A DNA stretch of 36,759 bases, taken from positions 1-36,759 of IMG/VR virus record IMGVR_UViG_3300000228_000556; one strand, given 5' to 3'. Made by a program: the position numbers and the translations under genes. The notes beneath the pieces were generated by a model. It made no database searches and was not told the origin of the DNA. It saw only the letters and a program-made list of their open reading frames with translations. Of the stretch, positions 8,951 to 36,759 are shown one piece after another. This DNA is from a virus. Every line of letters starts with the position of its first letter. Positions within the stretch are counted from its first letter, which is position 1.

Positions 8951-11900
8951 TTAGTCTTTAAAAATATTAATATGCGGACGAATATTTATCCCCATACCAC
9001 CCTCCCGCTCTTTTTTTGTAGGCTGAATGCCGCCCTTGAGCAATATATACGCCTCTTTTTTCCTATCCTCTTCCGGCAATGCGTCAATGTATATTCTCGC
9101 GAGCTGCTTTTGCTCCTCCGGCGCATCGGCTTCGCTCACTTTTTTGATTAGCTCTTCTCTTGCTTTCTCTTTTTTGTTCTTCTCAAATCTATCCGGCGTA
9201 GTTTCTTTATAATGCCGCCTTACAATCGGTATCTCTTTTACGTCAACAGGCTTGTCGCTCATCGCCTTAAAAGGCAATAGCAACGTATCTGTAGCTACGG
9301 AAGGAGCGCCGCCGCCGTATTGCCCCATAACATACATTATATCATCCGGACGAACGTGTATGTTTACCTTGTGAAGACCGTTAGACACTGTTATCGCCAT
9401 TTCCCCTTTTGTGGTGTTGCCAGTGCTAGGGAAGTGTTGCTGTTTTTTTGGCAATTTCTCTTTATTATCGGGGTGTATCTTGCTACCGTTCCAGCTTTCA
9501 TTTATTCTCACGTCTACGAACGGACGAAAGATTGTCGGAAATACGGTACCTATGTCAGAGCCGCCGACTGGATTGTAGGAGCCCCAAGCCGACCCAACAA
9601 CATTGGCAAAAGCAGCCAGCGCGCCGTCTCCTTTTCCGGTAAACGAATCATATATATTGTCAATGAGGGTCTTAATAGGTCTAAGGGAGTGCGTCAGGGT
9701 AAAGTTTGTATAGTGAAGGCTTCCATCTTCGTTGTGCCCCAGCACGATAACAAGGTTTGCTTTCCTGTCATACTCATTTGTTTTTTCGCGCCAATCTGGG
9801 TCTACCATGTCATTGTACGCATTGTTGCCTATGGTTATAGCCGTAAGAGTCGCTATAGATGCAATAGCTACTTTTGGGCTGTCTTTGGCGATTCGAAAAG
9901 TCTTATAGTTGCCTTGAATGCTTGGATTTGCAAACATATAAACAGCTGATATTGCAGAAGTAGCATTACCTTTTTTATTGAAATTTATTGTAACTTCTTT
10001 TGCATGTTGCGCCGCTCTCTCTATGCTCATCCCTTTATCTTTCGCCGCGATATACGCCGCCAAACGGGTAGAGTCTTCGAAGATTTTGTTTGCTTTGTCA
10101 ATAAAATTAACGACCTTCTCTAACGCCTGTCGAGGCTTTGAGTTTGCTATCTTCTCCAAATCTCCTAATGAGGCGAATATATCCTCTCTTGTTGAGAGTG
10201 AAAGCCCGCCAGTCGTTCCCCCTGCGTCAACCATCTCTTTGTATATCCTAGCGCCCTCTGAGCCTTTTTTATTAGCCATAGCGTCGTATACATACTTGAC
10301 GGATAACGGCTGGTTCCCTAATGCTTTAGCGGCGCCTTTGAAGCCCATACGAGACAGGTTATATAAAATTGCCTCCTGTATATCTCTTTTGATATTATCT
10401 ATCCAAAACTCTACGTTATTTCGAGTCAGCATCGAAGACCATAGTCTTGTTATTGCGCCTAGCGTCTTGATGAATATGTGCATATCATTTATGCCCATCC
10501 CATTCATAGCCCCCGCCAGCGTCTTGTCATTTATCTGTATCCACACGGGCTTCCCATTCACCCGAGCTACTATCACATTCTCCGGCTTCGTCGGCATGAT
10601 AGGCGTTTTGCCATCATGCGCCATCCCAATCGCCTTTGGCGCCCCAAGGTTCGTAAATAGCGGAGTACCGTCTTTTGCCTCGTCTATATATTTGATGAGC
10701 GACAAAGTCACGCGGTTCTTTTCCGCTCTCAACGTCGCCTGTGAGACATTGGCCTGTATATTTCCGAGTATGTCGTGTACCTCAAGCGACGAGCCTTTCG
10801 CCGTCTTTATCCCTGTTGTCGGCGCTCCGATACCACTACCGGCTAGCGCCTGTACCGTATTGTCGCCCTCGTCTTCCATGATTCTGTTCAGCGGCACATG
10901 CTCTTTGTACTTTGCGCGTAACTGCTCATAAAGCTTTGGCTCTATCACCTGCCCATCTTTGAGTATATCAAGCGTCATTTCGTTGAGCTTGGCGGCATTG
11001 GCGGCTACGGCTTTGATTTCCTCTGCAAAAGGTAGATTTTCGATGATAGCGTGGATTTGTTTTGCGCCCTCGCTACTCATGCCTGCAGCTCCCTCAAACA
11101 TAGCGGCGTTTCGCTCAGGCGCGTGTTTTGCATGCAGATAGCTATTCACAAGCGCTTTTGTTTTTGCAAAGTCATTGCCGTATTTGTCGGAAATTTCCTT
11201 GATACCGTCCACGATGCCCACCATGATTTCCTTGACACTGTCCATCTTTGCCTGCACGCGCCCATCGTAGAGCGTTCGCGCTAGATACGGGTCTGCTTCG
11301 TCGCTCAATTTTTCTCCATTTTTCTCTCTGGCGGCTATCTCGCTTTCGACTTTCGCCCAATTATCCTGCACCGCCTCTCGCAAAGACATGAGCGACTCTT
11401 TGATTTTTGCCGACATACCCGGTTCATTCTCCAGCTTCTCTATCTGCTTGTACCCATGCCACTCTTCCGGCGGTCGCGTCTCCCTCGTCTCCACCGCCTC
11501 CCGTATATCCTGCCGCGACCCCGCTTTTGCAAGCCCCGGAAGATTCTCTTGCGTCAGCGTCATATCTTTGCCCGCCGCCTCCTGTGTAGCTAGCCCCTCG
11601 AGCTGTGGTTGCTCTTTTTGATACAACACATCCCGCTCTTTCGCCGCGACTTCCATCTCCCCATATATCTTCTTCGCCGCCTCCGTATCGCCAAATAGCG
11701 CCGAAAAAAACTCTCTTTGCCTATCATCCAGCTTCGCCATAGCTTCATGCGATTTTGGATTTTTCGTGAATATATCCACCAAAAAGCTCTTCATCTTCGC
11801 AAACACGCCCTCAAGCAGTGTGGTAGGCTCTCTTCCCTCGCCAAGCCACTTGACAAAAGCATGCGCAAACTCCTCTTCTTTTGCTACGCTCCACTCGCCT

Positions 11901-14671
11901 TTCTCTACACCAAAAGCCGCTTCGGCGGCGGCTCGCTCCTCAGGGCTTAGAGTACGGCGGAAATAGTGCCCGTATTCGTGCATCACGGTTGCAAAGTTTG
12001 CGCTTTTGAATGTGGTGATGACGTGTGAGGTTGAGAGTTTTTCGTATACTCCGTGCACTATTTCATCTTGACTTATTTTTGAAGATTGAGGTATACTATC
12101 TCCCACAGCAGATGAATGCGCTTTTGCGCCAGCCACAGTCTCGCTAGTCGAGAGTGAGGGAGTGGGCGACCCCTCCGTCTGCCGCTTGAACTCTCTAGCC
12201 GTATCTCTTGGGCTATTCCTGTCCGTCGCGTGCACGACAATATTATAAAAACCACCATCTTTTTGAATCCCAATCGCTTTTAGCGCGCCATCATCTTTTG
12301 TTTTTGCAAGAATTGTATTATCTGGGTTTGTAGCCCGCAAAAAATGGGTAGGATTATCTTTTACCTCTTTTATTAGCCTGAAAACATCAGCTTCATTTTC
12401 AAACATTTTTGGGTGTTTTTGCAATAGCGTAGTCAGATTTGTAGAGATAGTTTTGTCCGAAATGCCGGCTGTATCACGAACCCATTTTTCAACATTCAAA
12501 AAAACTTGATGATTTTTTGGGTCTTTAAGATCTACAGGGTCGCCAACAAGTTCAAAGTTTGGCTTATTCTCTTCTTTGGAAAATAACATATCAGCCTCGC
12601 GCATCAGCGCCGCATGCTCATCTTTCGGCACATACTCCTGCCGCCCCATATCGTACACAAACTCAGGCTTTGCCGTAGTATCCGCCGCTTTTGCCGCAAT
12701 GTATCTATCAAACGCCCCGGTATCTTTTGCGAAGCTAGCTATGTCGGACATAGCCGCGCTCTCCGCCGGGCTAAGCGGCTCCATATTCGCCGTCTTCTTG
12801 TCTAGCCTCTCTATAACATCCCGATTGATACCAAGCGTATTCTTTTGATACTGCCCCGCTTTGAAGTCGTTGAGCTCCATATACACAGAATCAAATATAT
12901 CTCTATTCGCGCTAGCCGCGTCCACCTCCGGCTTTGACATATTCGGATAGTCTACGACCTTTAGCCCATTTGCCGCGTCCCACTCTTGCCTACTCACTCC
13001 CGCGGTTGCGGCTCTTGCGTTCATCAGCTCGTCTGTGGCGGCTCTTGCGCTAGACATCTCGTCTATTCGCTCAAAGGCGCGGTTGTTTAGGAGCGCGTCT
13101 AGCTCAGGTTGTTTTTTTGCGGCTATCTTTGTAGTGAGGTACTCCGTGAACGGGGCGATGTCTTTTTGCTCATAGGCGTGAAGAGCCGCGGTTTTGACAT
13201 CTTCAGCGAGCGGGTATTTATTTAGGACGTTTGCGAAGTCTTCTGCGCTGTGCAGAGAGCTATCTATTGTTTTTTGTAGTGAGCTTATAATACCAAACCC
13301 TTGCAGGTTGGCGGGTAGTCCAGTCTGTCCGTCATTCCACACCGAAGACATATGCAGTTCGTTTTCGGTAGGCGGCACAATCTCAGCGGCTTTGGCGACG
13401 GCGGTATCTATATCCGCGCCGGCTCGAAGCTGATCGTCTATTGCGGCTTGACGTTTTGTGTAGTTAGCCTGTGCGTCCATCTCCGCCGCATGCGTGACGC
13501 TATGTATCTGCTCTAGCGCCGCGTCTGCGATATTTGCGTCTACTATAGGATTGTCGTCAAAACGGGCTGTGACGCGCGCTACCGCGGCTGGAGCCGCCGA
13601 GTCGTTGGTGGTAGGCTTCAGCTCAGGCGCTATAGTATCCACTTTTGGAGCTATCACTTTTGCGCTCATTCCACCGATTGGCGCGCCAATAGCGGCGCCC
13701 ATAAGAACACCTGGTACAGCGTTCGCGATAGAAGCTTTAAGCGCATCGTCGTGCGACATACCTTGTCTTCTTTGATTGGAATACGTTTGCGCCGCGCCGA
13801 CCGCGCCGTTGAAAAGCCCGTCTGCTAGCGCCCCGGCAGATACGGCGGCGACTTTTCCAGTGAACATCCCCCCTACTTTTGCGGCAAAAGCCGGAAGAGC
13901 GAGATTCGAGACATCCCCCAGAGTCCCACCGACAAAACCGGCTATGTTTGCATCGCTAGGGTGCGTGACAGAGTCATACATCCCGGCAAGCGAGGCTTTC
14001 ACGGTTTGCATTGGAGTCTTAGCATCCGCCATCTGCTTCTTGACCGCTTCATACTCTGCAACCCGCACAGGGTCGGTCATCTGCCCGATTTTGTACTCTT
14101 CGTCCCTTCTTGCTATATCTTGTAGAATAAATTTGTTTTTTTCGGCATCACCAAGGTGTAGCGCATTCCCCAAAGAAACAACGGCTGCGGTTGCCCCCCT
14201 ACCTGCGCGATTAAAAGCGGTTTGTCCGTCAAACGGACGCTCAGTCTCAAGAAGAGCTGGTGCGTATGTGTCCTTCAACTCTTGTGTAGTCATTTTTGAT
14301 ATAGGTTTTTGCGTATACGCCGGAAGCGCGGCGGCTTTGATGTTTGCTTTTCCAGTATCGGCAAGCTGATTTGTGCTCTTGAGAACTACGGCGTTACGTT
14401 TTGCGGTCAACAGCTCTTTTCTAGCGTCTATTGATTCTTGCGACGGAAGCAGGAGTTGTGCTACGGGCTGCACTGGCGCCGCACGGACGACTTGCTCTCC
14501 AACGCTGATAAGCCCGCGAAGCAAACTAGGACCGACACCGTCGCTTGCGGCGTAATTTGTATATTTCTCTCGCAAGCTAGGCTCTTCGTTTGGTATATCT
14601 AGCGGGATAGTAGCGGCAGGCTTGGCGGTTTTGGCGCCAATATTATCTAGGTTTAAATCTATGTAAGCCAT
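8951..14671 (-). CDS. Giant polyvalent, probably ejected, virion protein with metalloprotease motif
   Basis: This 1906-aa protein ends the late operon. Residues about 230-330 are Gly/Ala-rich and amphipathic, as in internal or ejection proteins. Around 790-820 a segment (LRATNPDNTILAKTKDDGAL ... GGFYNIVVHATD) resembles the barnase/EndoU/colicin-E5-like nuclease domains of phage polyvalent proteins. Around 895, VMHEYGHYFRR is a zincin HExxH motif with a downstream EEFAHAF. Residues about 1410-1600 (EFWIDNIKRDIQEAILYNL ... INFNKKGNATSAISAVYMF) resemble a large polyvalent protein-associated domain (LPD38-like). Such proteins enter the cell with phage DNA. A candidate late promoter motif lies 40 bp upstream and AAGGA precedes the ATG. 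Domain names are from memory of the families. Confidence 0.8.
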   Translation of the reverse strand: MAYIDLNLDNIGAKTAKPAATIPLDIPNEEPSLREKYTNYAASDGVGPSLLRGLISVGEQVVRAAPVQPVAQLLLPSQESIDARKELLTAKRNAVVLKSTNQLADTGKANIKAAALPAYTQKPISKMTTQELKDTYAPALLETERPFDGQTAFNRAGRGATAAVVSLGNALHLGDAEKNKFILQDIARRDEEYKIGQMTDPVRVAEYEAVKKQMADAKTPMQTVKASLAGMYDSVTHPSDANIAGFVGGTLGDVSNLALPAFAAKVGGMFTGKVAAVSAGALADGLFNGAVGAAQTYSNQRRQGMSHDDALKASIANAVPGVLMGAAIGAPIGGMSAKVIAPKVDTIAPELKPTTNDSAAPAAVARVTARFDDNPIVDANIADAALEQIHSVTHAAEMDAQANYTKRQAAIDDQLRAGADIDTAVAKAAEIVPPTENELHMSSVWNDGQTGLPANLQGFGIISSLQKTIDSSLHSAEDFANVLNKYPLAEDVKTAALHAYEQKDIAPFTEYLTTKIAAKKQPELDALLNNRAFERIDEMSSARAATDELMNARAATAGVSRQEWDAANGLKVVDYPNMSKPEVDAASANRDIFDSVYMELNDFKAGQYQKNTLGINRDVIERLDKKTANMEPLSPAESAAMSDIASFAKDTGAFDRYIAAKAADTTAKPEFVYDMGRQEYVPKDEHAALMREADMLFSKEENKPNFELVGDPVDLKDPKNHQVFLNVEKWVRDTAGISDKTISTNLTTLLQKHPKMFENEADVFRLIKEVKDNPTHFLRATNPDNTILAKTKDDGALKAIGIQKDGGFYNIVVHATDRNSPRDTAREFKRQTEGSPTPSLSTSETVAGAKAHSSAVGDSIPQSSKISQDEIVHGVYEKLSTSHVITTFKSANFATVMHEYGHYFRRTLSPEERAAAEAAFGVEKGEWSVAKEEEFAHAFVKWLGEGREPTTLLEGVFAKMKSFLVDIFTKNPKSHEAMAKLDDRQREFFSALFGDTEAAKKIYGEMEVAAKERDVLYQKEQPQLEGLATQEAAGKDMTLTQENLPGLAKAGSRQDIREAVETRETRPPEEWHGYKQIEKLENEPGMSAKIKESLMSLREAVQDNWAKVESEIAAREKNGEKLSDEADPYLARTLYDGRVQAKMDSVKEIMVGIVDGIKEISDKYGNDFAKTKALVNSYLHAKHAPERNAAMFEGAAGMSSEGAKQIHAIIENLPFAEEIKAVAANAAKLNEMTLDILKDGQVIEPKLYEQLRAKYKEHVPLNRIMEDEGDNTVQALAGSGIGAPTTGIKTAKGSSLEVHDILGNIQANVSQATLRAEKNRVTLSLIKYIDEAKDGTPLFTNLGAPKAIGMAHDGKTPIMPTKPENVIVARVNGKPVWIQINDKTLAGAMNGMGINDMHIFIKTLGAITRLWSSMLTRNNVEFWIDNIKRDIQEAILYNLSRMGFKGAAKALGNQPLSVKYVYDAMANKKGSEGARIYKEMVDAGGTTGGLSLSTREDIFASLGDLEKIANSKPRQALEKVVNFIDKANKIFEDSTRLAAYIAAKDKGMSIERAAQHAKEVTINFNKKGNATSAISAVYMFANPSIQGNYKTFRIAKDSPKVAIASIATLTAITIGNNAYNDMVDPDWREKTNEYDRKANLVIVLGHNEDGSLHYTNFTLTHSLRPIKTLIDNIYDSFTGKGDGALAAFANVVGSAWGSYNPVGGSDIGTVFPTIFRPFVDVRINESWNGSKIHPDNKEKLPKKQQHFPSTGNTTKGEMAITVSNGLHKVNIHVRPDDIMYVMGQYGGGAPSVATDTLLLPFKAMSDKPVDVKEIPIVRRHYKETTPDRFEKNKKEKAREELIKKVSEADAPEEQKQLARIYIDALPEEDRKKEAYILLKGGIQPTKKEREGGMGINIRPHINIFKD

Positions 14672-20056: not shown

Positions 20057-20586
20057 TGTGTTGCGCCAAAAATAAATAGCTCATCAAGAGCCGCATCGTC
20101 AAGCTCTAGCAACGGAGCAAGCGAGATAACAAGAGGATGATCTCTTTGCAAAGAAGTAGCAAGTTCAAATATCTCTTTCGCCTCTTCATTTGCCGCTAAA
20201 ATAGCCTTAAAAGCGTCCCATTTTCCAGCATTCACAAGCGCCGCCCGCACCTGCACCTTTGTAATCTCTCTCTGTACAATCGCCTTTCTCTGCCGCGCCA
20301 AATACTCCTCTTCCTGCTCCGCTTTCGTATGCAAAACACCGCTATCGTCTGTATAATCGGCAAACATATCGCGAACGCCCCATTTCATTACGAGATTGCC
20401 TTTTGCGCCCCGCTCTACACCGTCACTAAGGACGGTTTGTAGTCCGTTCACAGCGGGGATTGGTGTAGGAAATACGACTTCGTAACCCAAAGAAGCAGGG
20501 TTAAACGGCGTGGGGAAGCTCGCGCTTGGATGCTTTGCTCGTACTTGAGACTCCGTGTATAGTTTGTCTTCGTCTTTGTGTACCAC
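20053..20586 (-). CDS. Putative tail-fibre assembly or tail-associated protein
   Basis: This 177-aa protein has a Pro-rich N-terminal half (FPTPFNPASLGYEVVFPTPI) and a helical C-terminal half with QREITKVQVRAALVNAGKWD, a pattern common to small proteins encoded after phage tail fibres, some acting as assembly chaperones. It starts with GTG. Position between the DGR-linked genes and the lysis cassette supports a tail role, but no family is certain. Confidence 0.55.
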   Translation of the reverse strand: MVHKDEDKLYTESQVRAKHPSASFPTPFNPASLGYEVVFPTPIPAVNGLQTVLSDGVERGAKGNLVMKWGVRDMFADYTDDSGVLHTKAEQEEEYLARQRKAIVQREITKVQVRAALVNAGKWDAFKAILAANEEAKEIFELATSLQRDHPLVISLAPLLELDDAALDELFIFGATQ

Positions 20587-20587
20587 A

Positions 20588-20773
20588 TTATCTCAGTCCA
20601 ACCTCTTGCATTTCTAAGATATATTGCTCTTTAACGATAGTATTAATCTGACTAATCCGCCCAAACATCTTAGTCATAACCATATCCATATCATCGAAGT
20701 TGCTTCTTAAGACTATCTGCCCAGCGTCTACCGCGTCCAAAAACATTTTGTTTCTGCTCTTGTATTGCTCCAA
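20588..20773 (-). CDS. Hypothetical 61-aa protein
   Basis: This short helical protein (MEQYKSRNKMFLDAVDAGQI ... EMQEVGLR) lies four bases downstream of the preceding gene and abuts the next one. I do not recognise it; spacing is the main support. Confidence 0.5.
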   Translation of the reverse strand: MEQYKSRNKMFLDAVDAGQIVLRSNFDDMDMVMTKMFGRISQINTIVKEQYILEMQEVGLR

Positions 20774-20777
20774 TATT

Positions 20778-21143
20778 TCAGGAGCTATTGGGTTTGTCTC
20801 GTAGATTTGCCCCCGCTAGCCTAGATGAAAGCATTAGGTTAAACTCCAAAATCTTCATCACGTCCGCCATAAGGTCGTATATGTCGCCAACATCTCGCTC
20901 TATAAGATGTCTAGCTCCGTATTTGCGGACATCCGCAAATCTTTGCTTTGCAAGCTCATCTCTTTCAATAGGCGTAAGCTCAACTATCGTCGCTTGTATC
21001 CTTGCGTCCTGCTCAACTTCTTGTGGCAAAAATGCAAAATCCCATTCGCCAACCTTACCTATATACTTAACGCCATCGCCTTTTATGTCGAGGCTAGTCC
21101 CGTTATGCGAATATTCGATATACCTTTTGTACTTGTAAATCAT
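20778..21143 (-). CDS. Hypothetical 121-aa protein overlapping the reverse transcriptase gene
   Basis: This protein has a strand-rich N-terminus (YIEYSHNGTSLDIKGDG) and a helical C-terminus. It starts inside the last 41 bp of the reverse transcriptase gene behind a good AAGGAG site. The overlap ties it to DGR expression, but it does not resemble known DGR accessory proteins (Avd, HRDC or MutS-like) and may be a tail-fibre partner. Confidence 0.6.
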   Translation of the reverse strand: MIYKYKRYIEYSHNGTSLDIKGDGVKYIGKVGEWDFAFLPQEVEQDARIQATIVELTPIERDELAKQRFADVRKYGARHLIERDVGDIYDLMADVMKILEFNLMLSSRLAGANLRDKPNSS

Positions 21144-22305
21144 TGATTGCTTCTCCTTTTATACGATTTAAAAAATAGCTAAACGTAGCCGTCCTCTTTG
21201 CATTGCCGATGATGGATACTAGACTATCATTAGCCCTGTTTTTCAAAGCTTTGGCAAAATTATGTAAGCTTCTTTTTCTTACAAACCTAGTGCTTCTCCA
21301 AGTCCTAAACCCCACAAAGTTAACACCTTTTTTAATTTTTGCTATCTTCCACCTTGATAGTTCTAGTTTTAAGCTACTTCTCATCCACTCAACGATTTTG
21401 TGTAGTACAATCTTTGCGTCTTCTTTCGTCGCAAATCCACACATTACGCTATCATCTACATACCTGTTATAGTGTTTAATTTTTAGGTGTCTTTTTACCC
21501 AGTGGTCAAATTTGTTGAGATAGACAAGACCGTAAAACTGACTGAGCAAATTGCCTATATGAAGCCCTTTGGAGCCACTACCAACAAAAGACATCATCAA
21601 ATCCAAAACTCTGACGTCGCTAATCTTTTTGCTTAATAACTCTCTTAGCTCTGCATGGTCAATACTATAGTAGTATTTGCGCACATCTATCTGCAAAAAG
21701 TATTCTTCGCCGGTGCATTGTCTTAGCTGCCATTGCAACTTATCCGCTGCTTTGTGGGTTCCTTTGCCAATTCTGCAACCGTAGCTATCAAAGATGAAGC
21801 TTCTATCAAATACGAGATATACGAGTCTGTAAACAGCGTGTTGCACTACGCTATCTCTGAAAGATGGCGCCGCTATCTCCCGTGGTTTTGGTTCATACAC
21901 CATAAACTTCTTTGGTTCGCTTGGCGTATATGAGCCGCTGAGTATCTCTTTTTGTAGTTGTAGTAGTTCTGCCCCAATATTATTTTCAAAATCATAAATA
22001 CCTTTTTTAAATCTTTTTGATTTTCTAGCGCTTATGAAAGCGGCATATAAATTATCTAGATCAGCTATTTTCTCTAATGTAATATGACTTTGAGAATATA
22101 AAGTAGTCTCATCGTCAGCATATTTTGCCGAAGCGGGAGAAGTAATCCCTATGTCTCCAGTATCTACCATTGTAGTATCAGGTAAAGAGAAATAGTCCGA
22201 GGAGCGAAAGCCAACATTGTTGTTGTCATTCGAGCGATTGTTGTTCAAGTTACGATAAAAAAGCCCCGCATCGGACGTGTTGTCCCAGTTGCCACACGAT
22301 AACAT
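21103..22305 (-). CDS. DGR reverse transcriptase, with the template repeat in its N-terminus
   Basis: This 400-aa frame encodes a reverse transcriptase of the diversity-generating type. The catalytic motif is YVDD in YNRYVDDSVMCGF (about 285). IGNLLSQFYG (about 250) carries the Ser-Gln pair that marks DGR enzymes where others have Gln-Gly. FVGFRTWRS near the C-terminus fits the thumb. Residues 3-38 are the translated template repeat. ATG 22305 has GGGGGGAG 8 nt upstream; the next in-frame ATG (22170, after the TR) has no site. The enzyme copies TR RNA with adenine errors for transfer to the VR of the fibre gene. Translation from 22305 is inferred. Confidence 0.93.
   Translation of the reverse strand: MLSCGNWDNTSDAGLFYRNLNNNRSNDNNNVGFRSSDYFSLPDTTMVDTGDIGITSPASAKYADDETTLYSQSHITLEKIADLDNLYAAFISARKSKRFKKGIYDFENNIGAELLQLQKEILSGSYTPSEPKKFMVYEPKPREIAAPSFRDSVVQHAVYRLVYLVFDRSFIFDSYGCRIGKGTHKAADKLQWQLRQCTGEEYFLQIDVRKYYYSIDHAELRELLSKKISDVRVLDLMMSFVGSGSKGLHIGNLLSQFYGLVYLNKFDHWVKRHLKIKHYNRYVDDSVMCGFATKEDAKIVLHKIVEWMRSSLKLELSRWKIAKIKKGVNFVGFRTWRSTRFVRKRSLHNFAKALKNRANDSLVSIIGNAKRTATFSYFLNRIKGEAINDLQVQKVYRIFA
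22192..22300 (-). repeat. DGR template repeat (TR)
   Basis: This 109-bp segment is the invariant template. Aligned to the VR (offset 559 bp, no gaps) it differs at 15 positions, 14 of them template adenines on the minus strand (14 of 28 adenines) and one a template G. Its reading frame carries repeated Asn/Asp codons (for example RNLNNNRSNDNNN), the typical AAC-rich design that yields many residues by adenine change without stop codons. It lies between the avd-like gene and the reverse transcriptase core. Confidence 0.95.
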
Positions 22306-22327
22306 TGTAATTACTCCCCCCTAAAAT

Positions 22328-22720
22328 TTATTTAGCTAATTCAGACTTTATCCAGCCGCCTATCATTGCGCCCACTTCATTTATCAAGAGATTTAGAGCT
22401 AGGTATCTTCGCTCTGCTTCAAAATCGCTTCTGCCGGACTTCCCGTCGTGATATTGGAAATAACCGAGTTCAAAAGCGAGCTTCGCCATCATTCTTAGTT
22501 GCTGATGTTTTACGTCAAGCTCTGTCAAGCTTGTTTTTTTGTGGTATCTTTTTTCACCCTCGACGATAAGGTTGTAAACCTCATACATTGTGTTGCGAAT
22601 CTGTTGACTTAAACCATATTTCTCGTGTCTTGGAAAATGGTTTAAGTTGATATTCGCCAGCTTGATAAGCGATGTCATCTTGAGTACCAACACCGCTTCT
22701 TTATCTTTTGTGACCTTCAT
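22328..22720 (-). CDS. avd: Avd-like DGR accessory protein
   Basis: This 130-aa basic, all-helical protein should form the four-helix-bundle pentamer that binds the reverse transcriptase and TR RNA during mutagenic homing. Family-typical segments are FPRHEKYGLSQQIRNTMYEV (about 29-48) and RRYLALNLLINEVGAMIGGW (about 104-123). It lies between the variable fibre gene and the TR in the BPP-1 order. No catalytic residues are expected. Confidence 0.88.
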   Translation of the reverse strand: MKVTKDKEAVLVLKMTSLIKLANINLNHFPRHEKYGLSQQIRNTMYEVYNLIVEGEKRYHKKTSLTELDVKHQQLRMMAKLAFELGYFQYHDGKSGRSDFEAERRYLALNLLINEVGAMIGGWIKSELAK

Positions 22721-22744
22721 CGTTCGCTACCGCTCACTAAGACA

Positions 22745-25297
22745 CTATACATAGGCCGAGGAGCGAAAGCCAACAGAGTAGTTGTTATTCGAGCGAGAGT
22801 AGTTCAAGTAACGATAAAAAAGCCCCGCAGCGGACGCGTAGCCCCAGTAGCCACACGAGCCCACAAACATATTGGCTATGTGATATTTATAAAAGTAGTC
22901 ATTGCCGAATAGATTGCTTCCACCGCTAGATTGAACAGAATTTGAATCTTTAAAAAAGAAGCCGCAAAGGTCTCTTGCGACTCCGCTTGTGGCGTTACTT
23001 AAGACAGCGTTTGCTCCATTGCCCCAATATACTGTTCCTATAGATGAGCCTATCGCAATTGGAGAAGTCACCGCGTCATATCTATCGCTCAGATTGCCGC
23101 TTGTCCCCCAAGCGTCCGTAGCCCCGCCAAATCCGCCTGTTAAATCTTTTAGATATGCAGATTGTTTGAGCACATATATTAAATCTGATGTTATTAGCGC
23201 TGTATCGGCTGCATTTGCTCCGGGCGATGTTAGCCCCAAATCAACTTGGAGCATAGACCCGTTCACGTCGGCTACGCCGTTATTTGCGCCGTTATGCGTA
23301 GTCTTTGCAAAAGATGAACCTGAGCCTGCTTTTGGCTTAGCGCTAGCGCCTGCGTCGCCTGCAGATGTAAAAGTTACACTACTATCATTTACATCTGCAA
23401 GTGAGCCATTGTTACACCCTTTTGGAAAGTTATTTACTCCCGTAGCGTCGTACCAAGCGCAATTTGTTATATTCGTAGCCGCCTGAGCTTGCGCCAAAGA
23501 GCAAAGAGCTAGCCAACCTCTCATAAATACGCTTGTCACATTCCACCCAGCTCCTCTAGCCCTAGCTAGATATACAGCGTCGGCTAGTATTCCCGTACAT
23601 CCGCTTATCATACCGTTTGAATTGGTGAAAGATGTGCCCGTTGTTAAAGATATAGGGACACCATTTTTGACCGATACAGCCGCTGAGCCGGATTTGCTAT
23701 TTATATACTTGTCGATGAAGAAGCCTGATTTTATAGCTCCACCATCGATGAATGCTCTATGAAGTACATATCCATCAGTATTTGCCGCCGCTTCATTTGC
23801 GTATGAGCTAGCAGGTAGCATATCAATAGCATTTGTGCCATAAGTCGCATATCGAGGGCTTGAGGCGTGTCCTATCCGATACCACATACGAGGCATCCAG
23901 CATACGATAGAGCCGTTGGTATGTTGATAGTTTCCGTAGTTATCGTGTCCTACCGTAGTCGTTCCCGTCATTTCAGCTAGGCTTAGTACTGCAAAAGCTT
24001 CTGTTGTCGGAGCTACTGAAAAGCCAAGCTCGCCTTGGTTTGAATACGTTACAAACGCGCTTTTTGTGGTAGCGACAACCTCTGTCCAAGCAGACGGACC
24101 ATAAGTCGTTCCGTTGTGTCTCGCTCTAAATTTATAAGAGGTAGAGACCTGAAGATTACCGGATGGGACGGACGTGCTAAGTCCTGTGTGTGTAGTTGAC
24201 CATACAAGGCTGTTATCGCTTGTTTTTCGAACTTCAAAATCAGTTGAAACGTATGTATCGCTTCCGCCGGACACGCTAAACGTCCCAGCCGTAAGCGTAG
24301 GAGTCTCCGTCATATCAGACGGAGTTCCTGTGACGCTCAGGGCTGGAGCTTGAATGTAGATATTTGGCGTAGTGTAATTTATCGCGGAGCTCCATTCGCT
24401 TCTATGGTTGTCAGAGCCTTGCATCACTCTTACATATACGCTAGTATTTGCGGGAGCGGACGGAGTCCAGCTTGTAAGATTTAGAGCGCCATCATAGCTG
24501 TCAACGATAGTAGCAAAAGAAAAACTATCGCTAAGTTGCCAGTGCACAAAGTCTTGCGCCCCCACGAAAGCGTCTGTTGTCGCATATGAAGCGGTTATCG
24601 CGCCAGCAAAGCTTGTCGCTCCGTTTGTGGGGGTAAAAATCGTAGGTTTGAGGATTTGAGACACGCCTCCTGCAGAGACGGCTCCCACATCCGCTTTTTC
24701 GTCCAATAGCGCTTGCATCTCTGTTTTTGTATGATACCTATCGTCATGCGTATGCCCAGTTGCCGCATAGTCGCTATGAGTATGCGCTGCAGGAGCTTTG
24801 CCGTCAAGAGCGGTTGACAACGTCGCAAGACCTTCCGCCATATCCGCAAGCTGTGCGAGCAGTTGCCCCACAGTATCAGCGTCGTTTTCCAATCTAGCCG
24901 CAAGCTCTTCAAACGTATCAAGAGCCGCCGGAGCAAGCCCAGTGATTTGAGCTTTGATATTTGTGATGACCTGCTCTAGCGTCTTGCCTTCTAGCTTTGC
25001 GGAGTCTACCGCCTGAGCGTCTGCATGCAGATACTCTATCGACGTAAACGCCGTGAGCGCTGCTGTGAGGTCTTCGCGGACTTTTGCGAAGTTTGGCAAT
25101 ATATATCCGTCCGGAAATGTCACGTTTCCGGGTGTAAGGTCGAAGAGTTCGCCGACTTTTCCGGTTTGAAACTCCATTATGATTTTGATTTTGTTGAGCG
25201 CCGTTATGGCGTTTGTAACAGAAGCGGTTAGCCCAGTTACGGCGGGGGTTAAAGCTGTGTTTAGCGCTGCTAATATCTCTTCCGGTGTCATTGCCAT
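22745..25297 (-). CDS. DGR-diversified tail fibre / receptor-binding protein
   Basis: This protein of about 850 aa is the DGR target. The N-terminus (1-175) is helical and likely binds the virion. ATGHTHDDRYHTKTE (about 180-205) is a tail-fibre linker motif. Two fibronectin-III-like domains follow (about 215-410), then a C-type-lectin/formylglycine-enzyme-like domain (about 420-850) that ends in the variable repeat. Relative to the template the last residues change N to Y or S, D to G, A or N, and T to A at 12 positions, altering the predicted binding surface. I chose ATG 25297 (AGGAAAG site) over a start ten codons earlier. It probably sets host receptor range. Confidence 0.92.
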   Translation of the reverse strand: MAMTPEEILAALNTALTPAVTGLTASVTNAITALNKIKIIMEFQTGKVGELFDLTPGNVTFPDGYILPNFAKVREDLTAALTAFTSIEYLHADAQAVDSAKLEGKTLEQVITNIKAQITGLAPAALDTFEELAARLENDADTVGQLLAQLADMAEGLATLSTALDGKAPAAHTHSDYAATGHTHDDRYHTKTEMQALLDEKADVGAVSAGGVSQILKPTIFTPTNGATSFAGAITASYATTDAFVGAQDFVHWQLSDSFSFATIVDSYDGALNLTSWTPSAPANTSVYVRVMQGSDNHRSEWSSAINYTTPNIYIQAPALSVTGTPSDMTETPTLTAGTFSVSGGSDTYVSTDFEVRKTSDNSLVWSTTHTGLSTSVPSGNLQVSTSYKFRARHNGTTYGPSAWTEVVATTKSAFVTYSNQGELGFSVAPTTEAFAVLSLAEMTGTTTVGHDNYGNYQHTNGSIVCWMPRMWYRIGHASSPRYATYGTNAIDMLPASSYANEAAANTDGYVLHRAFIDGGAIKSGFFIDKYINSKSGSAAVSVKNGVPISLTTGTSFTNSNGMISGCTGILADAVYLARARGAGWNVTSVFMRGWLALCSLAQAQAATNITNCAWYDATGVNNFPKGCNNGSLADVNDSSVTFTSAGDAGASAKPKAGSGSSFAKTTHNGANNGVADVNGSMLQVDLGLTSPGANAADTALITSDLIYVLKQSAYLKDLTGGFGGATDAWGTSGNLSDRYDAVTSPIAIGSSIGTVYWGNGANAVLSNATSGVARDLCGFFFKDSNSVQSSGGSNLFGNDYFYKYHIANMFVGSCGYWGYASAAGLFYRYLNYSRSNNNYSVGFRSSAYV
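22751..22859 (-). repeat. DGR variable repeat (VR)
   Basis: This is the 3' end of the fibre gene, finishing 3 bp before its TAG stop. All but one difference from the TR are at template adenines. The 3' end GGCTTTCGCTCCTCGG is shared exactly with the TR and is the likely initiation-of-mutagenic-homing site, followed by one further adenine change and CTAT. I found no second VR in the window. Confidence 0.95.
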
Positions 25298-25307
25298 TTT
25301 TACTTTC

Positions 25308-25580
25308 CTAATCGTTCGCGCCGACAAAAGCGGCGATATATTTTATTTTTCCGGCGACGACAAGATTTGACACCGTGTCGGCGGAGAGCTGCGGCACGTC
25401 TACCAAAAATTCGCACACAGCGCCGCTATTGAGAAGCGAAAACTTCTCGTCTTTGTACCCGTGCACTACCGCCGCTTTGTCTGCCACGCTTGGAGCGTGA
25501 GGCACAGCGTCGCGGCTGAGAACTCCCGGTTCCATCGGCGCCCGAAGTTTTCCGGTAGTCCAATCGTAAAAACCTGCCAT
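25308..25580 (-). CDS. Small tail/virion protein
   Basis: This 90-aa protein (starts MAGFYDWTTGKLRAPMEPGV) ends 10 bp before the fibre gene start. It has a Trp/Gly-rich N-terminus and a strand-rich C-terminus. Position suggests a fibre connector; no family recognised. Confidence 0.6.
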   Translation of the reverse strand: MAGFYDWTTGKLRAPMEPGVLSRDAVPHAPSVADKAAVVHGYKDEKFSLLNSGAVCEFLVDVPQLSADTVSNLVVAGKIKYIAAFVGAND

Positions 25581-25583
25581 CTT

Positions 25584-26111
25584 CTATGCCTCCGTCTTCC
25601 AAAGTTCTATCAATATTTCCGCGCCGTTGTACGGGGGAAATGGAAAAATCAAAGTGTCGTTTGCGGCGTTTAGCGTAAGCTCATTTGGATGTACGCGAAA
25701 CCCGTCAATATGACAAAACACCTCGCCAATCCAATTTGCCGGAGCGTTTGCCGGCAATAAAAATTGCGTCAAAACACCGTCTCCGGCGTGGGTAATATCA
25801 GCCCTTGATAAAGAGCCGGAAGCTAATGTTGTCTCTTGCAGTAAAGAGAGAGTTGTCGTAATGTTTGGAGAAGCTGTAACAATAACCGACTCACCAATGT
25901 TTACATTTACGCTATCTAGCGTAAGGCAGTCGCTATCTGGCGCGATAATGCCTTTTGAGTATGGAGCAAGAACGCCGGAAGTTGATTTGATTTTGACGGT
26001 ATAGTTTTCCGCCGTGGCTCCCGTATTGCAAAGATTTATTTTGACCGCGCTATAAAGCGGTATGACAAAGGTCTGATTTCCATCCCCCCATCGCCTTACG
26101 AGTCTTCCCAT
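25584..26111 (-). CDS. Putative structural protein upstream of the fibre gene
   Basis: This 175-aa beta-rich protein (VIPLYSAVKINLCNTGATAE, ESVIVTASPNITTTLSLLQ, FPPYNGAEILIELWKTEA) looks like a small virion or decoration/tail module. It lies 2-3 bp from both neighbours in a contiguous structural run. Family not recognised. Confidence 0.6.
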   Translation of the reverse strand: MGRLVRRWGDGNQTFVIPLYSAVKINLCNTGATAENYTVKIKSTSGVLAPYSKGIIAPDSDCLTLDSVNVNIGESVIVTASPNITTTLSLLQETTLASGSLSRADITHAGDGVLTQFLLPANAPANWIGEVFCHIDGFRVHPNELTLNAANDTLIFPFPPYNGAEILIELWKTEA

Positions 26112-31857: not shown

Positions 31858-32526
31858 TTACGCCGCGAGATATTTTTGCAATGTAGGAAAAGATATTTCA
31901 AGAGAGGTGCAGATATGTTTTTTCTTATATCCATCAGCAAGCAACTTTTTTGCTTTTGCCGCTTTTTCAGGCTCATGTAATCCAGTTGAGCCCTCAGGCC
32001 GCCCTATCTTAAAGGCTTGTTTCTCCTCATCAGCGGTTAGCTCCCTGCCAATCTCTCTTCTCTTCTTCGCCACGGCGATTTCTTTTTTACTTTTCAGAGC
32101 CTGAATGGTTCTTTCGCGTATCATATCTCTTTCAAATTCAGCGAACATTCCGAGCATATTTACCATCATTTTTTGCATTGGGTCGGCAAGTTCATACCCG
32201 TTTTTTGTCTTTTGCGGAGCCAAATCCATATTGTGTTTTATGAGTATTAGCCTCACGCCCCTCTTTATTATGTCGTCAAAGATGGTTCTAAGGTCGAGTA
32301 GCGACCGTCCAATACGGCTAAGCTCCGTGCAAACAAGCACATCGCCAGCCTTTAGACTTTTTACAAGCCCATATATCTCTCGCTTATCGCTACGAGAGCT
32401 AACAGATTCGCTTACAACTTTTTCACACGCTCCAAGCTCAAGCGCTTTTAAATACCTGTAGATTTCTTGCTCTTGATTTCTTGCATCTTGCTCGTCCGTA
32501 GAGACTCTTGCATATCCTATTATCAT
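31858..32526 (-). CDS. Serine recombinase (resolvase/invertase type)
   Basis: This 222-aa protein has the N-terminal resolvase catalytic domain: YARVSTDEQ with the nucleophile Ser (about residue 9), TELSRIGRSLLDLR (about 70-83) and an ARF-like EFERDMIRERT (about 130-141). The C-terminal HTH reads KKHICTSLEISFPTLQKYLA (about 202-221). It lies between the terminase and portal genes, an unusual place. It might resolve phage dimers, invert a segment, or be a leftover mobile element. Catalytic residues look intact. Confidence 0.9.
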   Translation of the reverse strand: MIIGYARVSTDEQDARNQEQEIYRYLKALELGACEKVVSESVSSRSDKREIYGLVKSLKAGDVLVCTELSRIGRSLLDLRTIFDDIIKRGVRLILIKHNMDLAPQKTKNGYELADPMQKMMVNMLGMFAEFERDMIRERTIQALKSKKEIAVAKKRREIGRELTADEEKQAFKIGRPEGSTGLHEPEKAAKAKKLLADGYKKKHICTSLEISFPTLQKYLAA

Positions 32527-34755: not shown

Positions 34756-35724
34756 TCACCTCTCTTTAATTACTCCCGCCCAAAACTCCGCCATACGCGG
34801 AACTATAGCGTTTCCAAGCCCTCTAAGTCTGTCCACCCTGTCGGGTACCCCATTAGCCACTCTACCCACGTCGGGTTCAGGCTCCCACTCTCTGCTGATA
34901 CTACTTGCGAAAGATTGAGCTGTTTGCCTATATCCGCTCGCCTCTGTACGCAAGCTTGCCCAATATGCCCCCGGTCTCTCACATCCGACGCTTGCGGTGT
35001 CTGGTAGAATGCTACTCTCTCCTCTAGCCGGCGGCGATATTTGCCCCTGTTCCGGATTGTCTCCATGCTCTCCGCCATCGCCGATGAGCTTCTCGGTGTC
35101 GGCCACATCCGCACCGTATCCGCAAGATTGAGCGAATGACTCGACCCGCTCTTTGCCAGCCGCCGCCCCGTCGGCGTCAGCTCTGCATTTGGGTGTTCGC
35201 TCTCTTGCGTCGTTGGGGTAGGCAAGTATCCAAACCCTGTCCCTGATATGCGGCGCGCCAAAGTCGGCAGCTGATATGCAGTGCCATTCACAGTCATACC
35301 CGATCGCGGCCAGCTCTGCGAGTACTTGACACATGCTCGCTCCTCTATCTCTAGAAAGCAAGTTTGCGACGTTCTCCAATAACGCAAATCGTGGTCGTAC
35401 CTCGCCAATAATACGGGCGGCTTCATAGAAAAGTCCGCTTCTCTCCCCGTCAAGCCCTTTACCCGACGGGTTCGCGCAACTGATGTCCTGGCACGGGAAC
35501 CCCGCCGTGATGATGTCGATGGCTCCAAGTCTACAAACAAGCTCATCGCCTTTCACCTCCTTTATATCCGGATAGACCGGAGTCCCCGGAAAATTCTTTG
35601 CCAGCACCTTTTGAGCATACGGCTCTATCTCGCAAAACGCCACGGTCTTAATTCCACCGGCATTACGAAACCCAAGGGCAAAACCTCCAATGCCGCTGAA
35701 TAAATCTAAATGCTTAAGCTTCAT
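34756..35724 (-). CDS. dcm: DNA (cytosine-5) methyltransferase
   Basis: This 322-aa enzyme transfers methyl from SAM to cytosine. Motifs run in order: DLFSGIGGFALGF (I), CEIEPYAQKVL (II), GFPCQDIS with catalytic Cys (about 78), FALLENVANLL (VI), CISAADFGAPHIRDRVWILA (VIII) and DRLRGLGNAIVPRMAEFW (IX-X). The target recognition region lies between about 170 and 285. It probably protects phage DNA from host restriction. It lies just before TerS. The same DNA also carries a second long frame (34803-35546). Confidence 0.93.
   Translation of the reverse strand: MKLKHLDLFSGIGGFALGFRNAGGIKTVAFCEIEPYAQKVLAKNFPGTPVYPDIKEVKGDELVCRLGAIDIITAGFPCQDISCANPSGKGLDGERSGLFYEAARIIGEVRPRFALLENVANLLSRDRGASMCQVLAELAAIGYDCEWHCISAADFGAPHIRDRVWILAYPNDARERTPKCRADADGAAAGKERVESFAQSCGYGADVADTEKLIGDGGEHGDNPEQGQISPPARGESSILPDTASVGCERPGAYWASLRTEASGYRQTAQSFASSISREWEPEPDVGRVANGVPDRVDRLRGLGNAIVPRMAEFWAGVIKER
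34803..35546 (-). CDS. Second reading frame inside the methyltransferase gene, possibly a dual-coded protein
   Basis: This 247-codon frame on the same strand, shifted relative to the methyltransferase, reads unexpectedly like a phage protein: ARYDHDLRYWRTSQTCF, SQSWPRSGMTVNGTAYQLP, GTGFGYLPTPT and a C-terminal LNPTWVEWLMGYPTGWTDLE. I recall these phrases from proteins annotated near phage methyltransferases. If real, the start is probably ATG 35426 (residue 41 of the open frame), though no good ribosome binding site precedes it. The alternative is that the phrases are only out-of-frame echoes of the conserved methylase motifs. Confidence 0.4.
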   Translation of the reverse strand: MSLFVDLEPSTSSRRGSRARTSVARTRRVKGLTGREADFSMKPPVLLARYDHDLRYWRTSQTCFLEIEERACVKYSQSWPRSGMTVNGTAYQLPTLARRISGTGFGYLPTPTTQESEHPNAELTPTGRRLAKSGSSHSLNLADTVRMWPTPRSSSAMAESMETIRNRGKYRRRLEERVAFYQTPQASDVRDRGHIGQACVQRRADIGKQLNLSQVVSAESGSLNPTWVEWLMGYPTGWTDLEGLETL

Positions 35725-35938
35725 CTAGTTTCACCCGTTCTTCATACATCGCTATTAGCGTGTTTGAGCCTTCAAGCAATGCTAATGCGTCTTGCTTACA
35801 ACGATATTTAAGGATCTCAGAAATTTTGTCATGACCATTATATTTTTTGCTACAAATGAATGCCTCCAACGACCGCTCACGCAAAAATGCTATAGTGTCT
35901 AGAATGTCAGCTCTTTTTTGTTCGCTCATGGCATACAC
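35714..35938 (-). CDS. Hypothetical 74-aa protein
   Basis: This helical protein (SEQKRADILDTIAFLRERSL ... CKQDALALLEGSNTLIAMYE) overlaps the upstream gene by 13 bp and the methyltransferase by 11 bp. Family not recognised; the overlaps suggest it is co-expressed with DNA modification genes. Confidence 0.6.
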   Translation of the reverse strand: MYAMSEQKRADILDTIAFLRERSLEAFICSKKYNGHDKISEILKYRCKQDALALLEGSNTLIAMYEERVKLDEA

Positions 35939-36759
35939 CTACACTCTACGCCGTCAATCATGCCATCAAATAGTCTTACGTTTGTCATCTCTTGCCCATT
36001 GCAATATGCGGTCTTACCCCATTTTTTAAAAAAGAACGGTACTTTTGCCGCTTTGCATTGCCCTTGTATGTCTTTGACCCATTCATATCGTAGAGGTCTA
36101 GCCCCTGTGCCTGTTTCGCCGCCGACTATTACCCAATCTAGTTTATTAGATTGGGTTTTGTATTGACCGTTGTCGTTAGTAACATGAGATACTTCGCCTT
36201 TTAGCGCGTCAATAATAAGTTTCTCCCCTCTAGCGCTAGATTTAATCCATTGAAGATTTATTTTTTCATGCATCGGCTCAATACTCACAAACCTCAAAGC
36301 CGCCAGAGTGTCTAGCAGTATCGGAATGCGCTTGTCTGCTTGCTCTTGGTTTTCGGCTGTTACTCCTAGCCAAACGTTAGGCAATTTATATGGATATTTT
36401 TTTAAGAACTGTTGCATTCTTTCGGGTCGCTTTGTAAGGATTTGAAATGTATGTTGCGGGCAAATTGACATAATTTGAAAAACGGCATCTATAAATTCAA
36501 AAGATACAGCTGAATGAAACAAATCTCCCATTGAACATACAAAGTATATAGTTGGTTTCTTGCGTTTTTGAGGCTCGTATAGTCTTAATAAATGTGTTGT
36601 TACCTCAAAGCCGTTTTCATACCCTTTTGTACCCATCGCCTTTAGCCTATTTGCCATCGTCTCAGCATAGCAGTTGTCGCACCCTACGGACACTTTCGTG
36701 CATCCGCTAACAGGGTTCCATGTGGCTTCCGTCCATTCTATTTTTGTTTTTTGGCTCAT
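35926..36759 (-). CDS. Phage Gp37/Gp68-family (DUF5131) radical-SAM-like protein
   Basis: This 277-aa protein matches the phage Gp37/Gp68 family: IEWTEATWNPVSGCTKVSVG at the start, Cys20, Cys27 and Cys30 (in GCDNCYAE) as a possible Fe-S cluster site, FQILTKRPERM (about 105-115), VWLGVTAENQEQADKRI, FVSIEPMHEKI and DWVIVGGETGTGARPL. The Cys triad recalls radical SAM enzymes, but the reaction is unknown. It is complete, starting at the last base of the window, and heads the visible late-strand run. Confidence 0.87.
   Translation of the reverse strand: MSQKTKIEWTEATWNPVSGCTKVSVGCDNCYAETMANRLKAMGTKGYENGFEVTTHLLRLYEPQKRKKPTIYFVCSMGDLFHSAVSFEFIDAVFQIMSICPQHTFQILTKRPERMQQFLKKYPYKLPNVWLGVTAENQEQADKRIPILLDTLAALRFVSIEPMHEKINLQWIKSSARGEKLIIDALKGEVSHVTNDNGQYKTQSNKLDWVIVGGETGTGARPLRYEWVKDIQGQCKAAKVPFFFKKWGKTAYCNGQEMTNVRLFDGMIDGVECRCMP

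Follow-up and report, generated by a model that had tools for sequence, protein, structure and literature searches.

Does the fibre gene of this phage serve as the target of a working diversity-generating retroelement (DGR), and which RNA and DNA parts would such an element use? We analysed a 36,759-nucleotide stretch of viral DNA (record IMGVR_UViG_3300000228_000556; hereafter, the window), in which the initial annotation had placed a complete DGR within a short-tailed temperate phage. A complete DGR does occupy positions 21103–25297 on the minus strand, with its parts together on that one strand, as had been claimed, in the order fibre–VR–avd–TR–RT (Table 1). It combines a template repeat (TR) and variable repeat (VR) that differ with an adenine bias, a reverse transcriptase (RT) that carries SQ and YxDD motifs and is nearest to DGR RTs, an Avd protein, and a VR situated in a target of C-type-lectin fold. 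On these grounds we consider it very probable that the locus is a DGR of functional appearance whose role is to diversify the receptor-binding fibre of the phage at its lectin-fold tip. As a DGR the locus is ordinary. It deserves attention for cis-elements that it shares with its RT clade and for the way in which template, spacer RNA and RT start are packed into a single stretch; the novelty of the clade's cis-elements, judged against the open-access literature, is provisional.

Table 1 Features of the DGR locus (positions in the window)
Feature	Position	Strand	Basis or remark
RT ORF, 400 aa	21103–22305	-	PHROG RT match 5.1e-96; folded core from residue ~73 (22089)
YVDD catalytic motif	21451–21462	-	Motif match
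IGNLLSQ, DGR-type SQ motif	21538–21558	-	Motif match
Spacer (Sp) RNA and TR 3′ end (IMH*)	22087–22206	-	Covariation; inside RT ORF
TR (template repeat)	22192–22299	-	In frame within RT ORF, codons 3–38
Shine–Dalgarno-like AGGGGGGAG	22314–22322	-	Precedes ATG 22305; anti-SD duplex -9.9 kcal/mol
avd, accessory variability determinant, 130 aa	22328–22720	-	Pfam and PHROG
Short target hairpin GAGC-GGTA-GCGA (putative)	22724–22735	-	GRNA-type loop, tandem G.A; begins about 16–20 nt past VR
Target: tail fibre / receptor-binding protein, 850 aa	22745–25297	-	ORF; tail-fibre PHROG matches; ATG 25297
C-type-lectin-fold variable domain, residues 426–860	22748–24052	-	AlphaFold2, Foldseek and HMM
VR (variable repeat)	22751–22858	-	Gapless repeat of TR; the fibre's final 36 codons
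VR side of the fixed mark	22755	-	C in GCCT; TR counterpart A at 22196
FN3 / Ig-like stretch, residues about 195–432	24032–24745	-	Profile evidence, weak

Adenine-biased repeats beside a DGR-type RT and Avd

A repeat search over positions 20500–26000, run without prior knowledge of repeat positions, returned a single long direct repeat pair, the TR and VR of Table 1, whose copies lie 559 bp apart. On the coding (minus) strand the two align without gaps over 108 bp with 14 differences, 13 of which fall on TR adenines (27 adenines in 108 positions; hypergeometric P = 1.2e-8), and VR equals TR at 80 of the 81 non-adenine positions. All TR adenines occupy codon positions 1 and 2. The adenine pattern of the initial annotation thus stood, as did its reading as a trace of past mutagenic homing (P about 1e-8), but its repeat length did not: 109 bp, with 14 of 15 differences on 28 adenines, became 108 bp with 13 of 14 on 27. 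The 109th base (22300) is an edge effect: it adjoins non-matching bases and does not clearly belong to the repeat. Because one of these adenine differences (A at 22196 in TR, C at 22755 in VR) is a mark fixed across the clade, about 12 of the 13 reflect mutagenic homing. The sole non-adenine difference is a G in TR (22227) that faces an A in VR (22786). Conversion of G to A is outside what DGR homing is known to do, so the simplest reading is that the TR itself changed from A to G after the last homing. Across a comparison set of 83 TR/VR pairs, 1236 of 1270 differences lay at TR adenines, a figure that is not independent because the pairs were chosen by an adenine-tolerant score.

The best solved relative of the RT is the BPP-1 RT (8ub7, E = 1.8e-47); the next matches, group II intron RTs, reach no better than 2.5e-14. 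The DGR-type RT motif is defined as (I/V/L)GxxxSQ (PMC3521204); the RT carries IGNLLSQ together with YVDD, which bears out an earlier reading of YVDD and a DGR-type GNxxSQ motif. The Avd-like gene was likewise confirmed by matches to Pfam bAvd (PF22296, 4.2e-15, above the cut-off) and to the PHROG 'Avd protein of DGR' (1.2e-20). NCBIfam DivGenRetAVD also matched at 1.1e-19, but its 70.7 bits are below the 80-bit cut-off.

An active lineage of related DGRs

A profile scan of IMG/VR yielded 80 DGR-type RTs, and a detectable TR/VR pair accompanied 71 of these 80 relatives. A rapid maximum-likelihood tree for 87 RTs, built without group II outgroups, places the window RT in a clade apart from that of BPP-1: 58 sequences fall on the window side and 29 on the other (SH-aLRT 100). 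The nearest RT is that of contig L014 (53% identity over the RT, branch support 88). Two relatives, L015 and L022, have an in-frame TAG or TGA within the RT reading, for which broken genes, sequencing error or recoding are possible explanations.

Within the clade, near-identical loci show VR differences that are nearly all at template adenines, beside a TR that is unchanged or nearly so, which indicates that the lineage is active. The VR differences fell on template adenines in 10 of 10 cases for L055/L058 and in 21 of 23 for L052/L054, both pairs with identical TRs, and in 11 of 11 for L030/L031, which have one TR difference; on the BPP-1 side, the pair L078/L091 gave 14 of 15. For the window phage, single-sequence scans of IMG/VR with the RT, major head protein and terminase returned no close relative, nor did a genome-contig scan or a search for the exact IMH pattern. 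With one genome and no close relative found, VR change over time was not seen in the window phage, and we infer the activity of its own DGR from a single snapshot.

The template lies inside the RT gene

TR and spacer are contained in the open RT frame rather than upstream of the RT gene, a feature absent from the initial annotation. The ORF begins at ATG 22305, six bases ahead of TR, and the frame of TR is that of the target. A check of anti-SD duplexes found no ribosome-binding site for the in-frame internal ATG 22170. Because the only strong Shine–Dalgarno sequence precedes ATG 22305, the RT is probably translated from there with about 72 extra residues, and would then carry an N-terminal tail of that length coded by TR and spacer. 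Residues 1–72 are predicted to be disordered (pLDDT < 50), and the PHROG RT profile alignment begins at residue 3. At the nearest relative, L014 (5010–5055), there is no start codon ahead of TR; the RT begins within the spacer RNA, at ATG 5037 with GGAG upstream, and the window has ATT at the matching place.

This layout is already known. TR overlapping the RT ORF constitutes DiGReF group 3 (PMC3521204), and a TR within the RT has been reported for phage ACA1 (PMC10612066). In our comparison set, TR lies within an open RT frame in 22 of 83 DGRs, and the overlap state changes 11 times along the RT tree. A third-position excess in the translated spacer at first looked like codon-level selection, but we dropped it as evidence because DGRs that do not translate the spacer share the same phase pattern; the codon-phase comparison among DGRs thus found no selection at the codon level on the RT extension.

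A clade-specific spacer RNA

Downstream of TR, the DGRs of the window clade have in common GACT...CCTCAAA-hairpin-ATAGTGGA..A.AGGGA...TTTCC.GC-hairpin-GCGAAATC. An alignment of 43 spacers gave 15 base pairs in four helices, with 92.7% of cells paired, whereas slid versions of the pairing reached at most 50%. Compensatory, both-side changes occur in 11 pairs. None of 500 shuffles did as well. A search model built without the window and without L014 had a single match in the window, at the spacer itself (E = 2.7e-6), and recovered 18 held-out clade members. It matched neither BPP-1, even with filters off, nor the BPP-1-side DGRs, and a search of Rfam with the spacer RNA returned nothing. Single-sequence folds of the spacer were no better than those of shuffles, and the structure is visible by alignment only.

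Spacers of DGRs that do not translate them show equal conservation and the same phase pattern, so the alignments point to conservation at the RNA level rather than the codon level. The BPP-1 spacer folds, recruits RT–Avd and primes cDNA (PMC12875486), and by analogy the window's spacer RNA is presumed to be the element that binds RT–Avd and primes cDNA synthesis.

A fixed one-base mark and a putative short hairpin at the target

The TR of the clade ends in GACT where the VR has GCCT in 47 of 50 DGRs, with GCTT in one more; among DGRs whose RTs group with BPP-1, the GACT/GCCT mark occurs in 0 of 27. The nearest adenine upstream of the mark, usually 15–18 nt away, is mixed in VR (A 21, G 11, C 10, T 6), whereas the mark is fixed as C, so the mark is not a product of mutagenesis. 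In the simplest reading, copying would end before the mark, as with BPP-1, whose 21-bp IMH has 5 mismatches that bound the copied sequence (PMC3240598). Protein-level selection for alanine in VR is the alternative; the mark base lies within an alanine codon in 46 of 48 VRs.

Phage DGRs have been described with 7–10-bp GC-rich stems and GRNA loops past VR (PMC3240598). Such a hairpin or cruciform occurs in the majority of described phage DGRs but is not a strict requirement. The window has no such stem past its VR, and plain DNA folding of this region gave no stable hairpin. Comparison with relatives revealed a short form, GA-RY-GRTA-RY-GA, in which two pairs covary and G.A mismatches stand in tandem; it occurs in 29 of 50 clade DGRs compared with 0.0 in shuffles. 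The window's example (22735–22724) has no second copy in the 36.8 kb and is a putative target hairpin. A long GRNA-loop stem is found in 16 of the 50, and one form or the other in 45; because only those 16 have the long stem, it is not a defining DGR feature.

The target fibre and its phage

The target had been described as a protein of about 850 aa with fibronectin-like and lectin-like domains, and this description proved apt for the ORF from ATG 25297, although an alternative in-frame start at TTG 25327 is possible. The C-terminal 435 residues found no match in Pfam, but their AlphaFold2 model (pLDDT 88, pTM 0.91) has as its nearest PDB fold TaqVP (5vf4), a DGR variable protein of Thermus aquaticus (Foldseek E = 2.6e-14), with BPP-1 Mtd variants next. 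TaqVP was also found from sequence, by HMM profile (E = 1.6e-8). Homologous targets that share this lectin domain occur in about 45 related DGRs, in a set that includes the window. For the FN3/Ig-like stretch, the window fibre itself matched no Pfam family; a profile of five relatives matches FN3 of the netrin receptor DCC (E = 2.3e-5), and the relative L014 matches Pfam Ig_Rha78A_N (5.4e-7). Targets of this large modular build, Ig-like in one part and ending in a lectin VR domain, are common among phages. Campylobacter CP220-type phages have a tail protein with the same lectin-fold domain (BFVD D5GV96, TM 0.67).

The window encodes an integrase (phrog_1, 2e-54), an S24-type repressor, an SU10-type portal (SU10_portal) and a head–tail adaptor (phrog_332), and none of its genes matched tape-measure, sheath or tube genes. 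Judged from these genes, the phage is temperate and probably short-tailed, in agreement with the initial annotation. A BRO-type protein, a primase, a head protein and a terminase are also encoded, as is a 1906-aa protein with LPD38 (8951–14671), the C-terminal part of which resembles DarB-like antirestriction or ejected proteins of Burkholderia phages BcepIL02 and DC1. The lectin domain of the window also occurs in proteins of Helicobacter and Campylobacter phages, which hints at a host among the Campylobacterota. A serine-recombinase or DNA-invertase-like gene (31858–32526; phrog_125, 1.5e-42) adjoins the terminase and is possibly a second variation system or a terminase-linked gene. The right end of the record (34756–36759) holds DNA methyltransferase and DUF5131 genes.

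Model and alternatives

We propose that the template RNA would arise from a transcript that runs through avd, TR, spacer and RT. RT and Avd would bind the folded spacer, and cDNA would be primed at the 3′ end of TR, which would be copied with errors opposite adenines. The cDNA would then replace VR, guided by an IMH whose last bases differ from those of TR (GACT/GCCT) and assisted by the hairpin past VR; because TR stays constant, the cycle could repeat. TR and spacer would also be coding: translation of the RT most likely starts at ATG 22305, and the resulting disordered tail of about 72 residues would be tolerated and not selected.

Two near copies 559 bp apart might also come from plain duplication of the fibre's 3′ end without adenine-specific copying, but 13 of the 14 differences sit on the 27 template adenines (P 1e-8), beside a DGR-type RT and Avd, which leaves that explanation with next to no probability. 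Decay deserves more weight, if still very little: the RT would be inactive and the VR a relic of earlier homing, as the one G-to-A difference outside the adenine pattern and the lack of a canonical long-stem target hairpin might suggest. Decay, however, would add non-adenine differences, whereas VR matches TR at 80 of 81 such sites; moreover, all the ORFs are intact, and the catalytic motifs, the spacer RNA and the mark are retained. We therefore favour a DGR that is functional-looking over a decayed one.

The TR-encoded N-terminus of the RT could instead be a real, selected part of the protein, for example a mimic of the target tip or a regulator of the enzyme. The strong Shine–Dalgarno sequence at ATG 22305, with none at the internal ATG, speaks for this, as do the PHROG RT profile aligned from residue 3 and the recurrence of the overlap among relatives as well as in phages VP58.5 and ACA1. 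Against it, the codon-phase pattern of the spacer is alike in translating and non-translating DGRs, the overlap state has switched 11 times across the tree, and residues 1–72 are predicted to be disordered, so a selected N-terminus seems improbable to us, though less so than decay. Somewhat less doubtful, yet still unlikely, is a wider proposal. The clade would prime from an RNA of its own, a one-base mark would set how far transfer extends at the 3′ end, and the target would carry a tandem-G.A minihairpin; at this locus, where the RT frame holds TR and spacer and has its sole ribosome-binding site ahead of them, spacer-bound RT–Avd would block new RT translation, such that template use and enzyme synthesis compete for one RNA and limit each other.

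To our knowledge, the mechanism of DGRs is known almost solely from BPP-1. The present lineage offers independent, alignment-based evidence on which RNA and DNA parts of a DGR matter: a searchable spacer RNA, one fixed base that marks the end of copying and a short hairpin that is missed by stem-length rules. Priming site, transfer boundary and hairpin recognition can thereby be put to the test beyond BPP-1, and searches with the spacer model could aid the finding of DGR RNAs in unannotated DNA.

Comparison with known systems

The initial annotation had likened the gene order to that of BPP-1 (mtd–VR–avd–TR–brt). The order does agree, but in the window the RT gene overlaps TR and spacer, and its product falls in another clade of RTs. 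Both systems have their genes in this order on one strand, a phage tail target with a C-terminal VR, adenine-specific differences, Avd, a spacer downstream of TR and a GRNA-type loop past VR, and their RTs are 31% identical. By contrast, the BPP-1 RT falls in a different well-supported clade, and the spacer RNA model of the window clade does not match the BPP-1 spacer. Where BPP-1 has a 21-bp IMH with 5 mismatches (PMC3240598), the window clade has a one-base TR/VR mark; an 8-bp hairpin stem in BPP-1 stands against a short tandem-G.A hairpin in the window, and Mtd has 381 aa compared with 850 aa for the window target. The window also differs from BPP-1 in that its RT ORF encloses TR and spacer, in the frame of the target. 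The fold of TaqVP (5vf4) is shared with the variable domain of the window target at 16% identity, although TaqVP belongs to a Thermus DGR and is not a phage tail fibre.

Pseudoalteromonas phages ACA1 and ACA2 and Vibrio phage VP58.5 resemble the window in that a TR in the target's frame forms an N-terminal extension of the RT. In the RT tree, however, these phages group with BPP-1, in the part where the GACT/GCCT mark is absent, and ACA1 and ACA2 are myoviruses. Closest in kind are the IMG/VR contigs L014, L022, L027 and L067 and Pseudomonas phage Bise, which share the window's RT clade, spacer RNA and GACT/GCCT mark; the targets of the four contigs carry the window's lectin domain at 44–51% identity. 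Even these differ in arrangement: unlike in the window, the RT ORF does not include TR in L022 or Bise, the RT has its own start after the spacer in L027 and L067, and a longer GRNA-loop stem occurs in L014, L027 and Bise.
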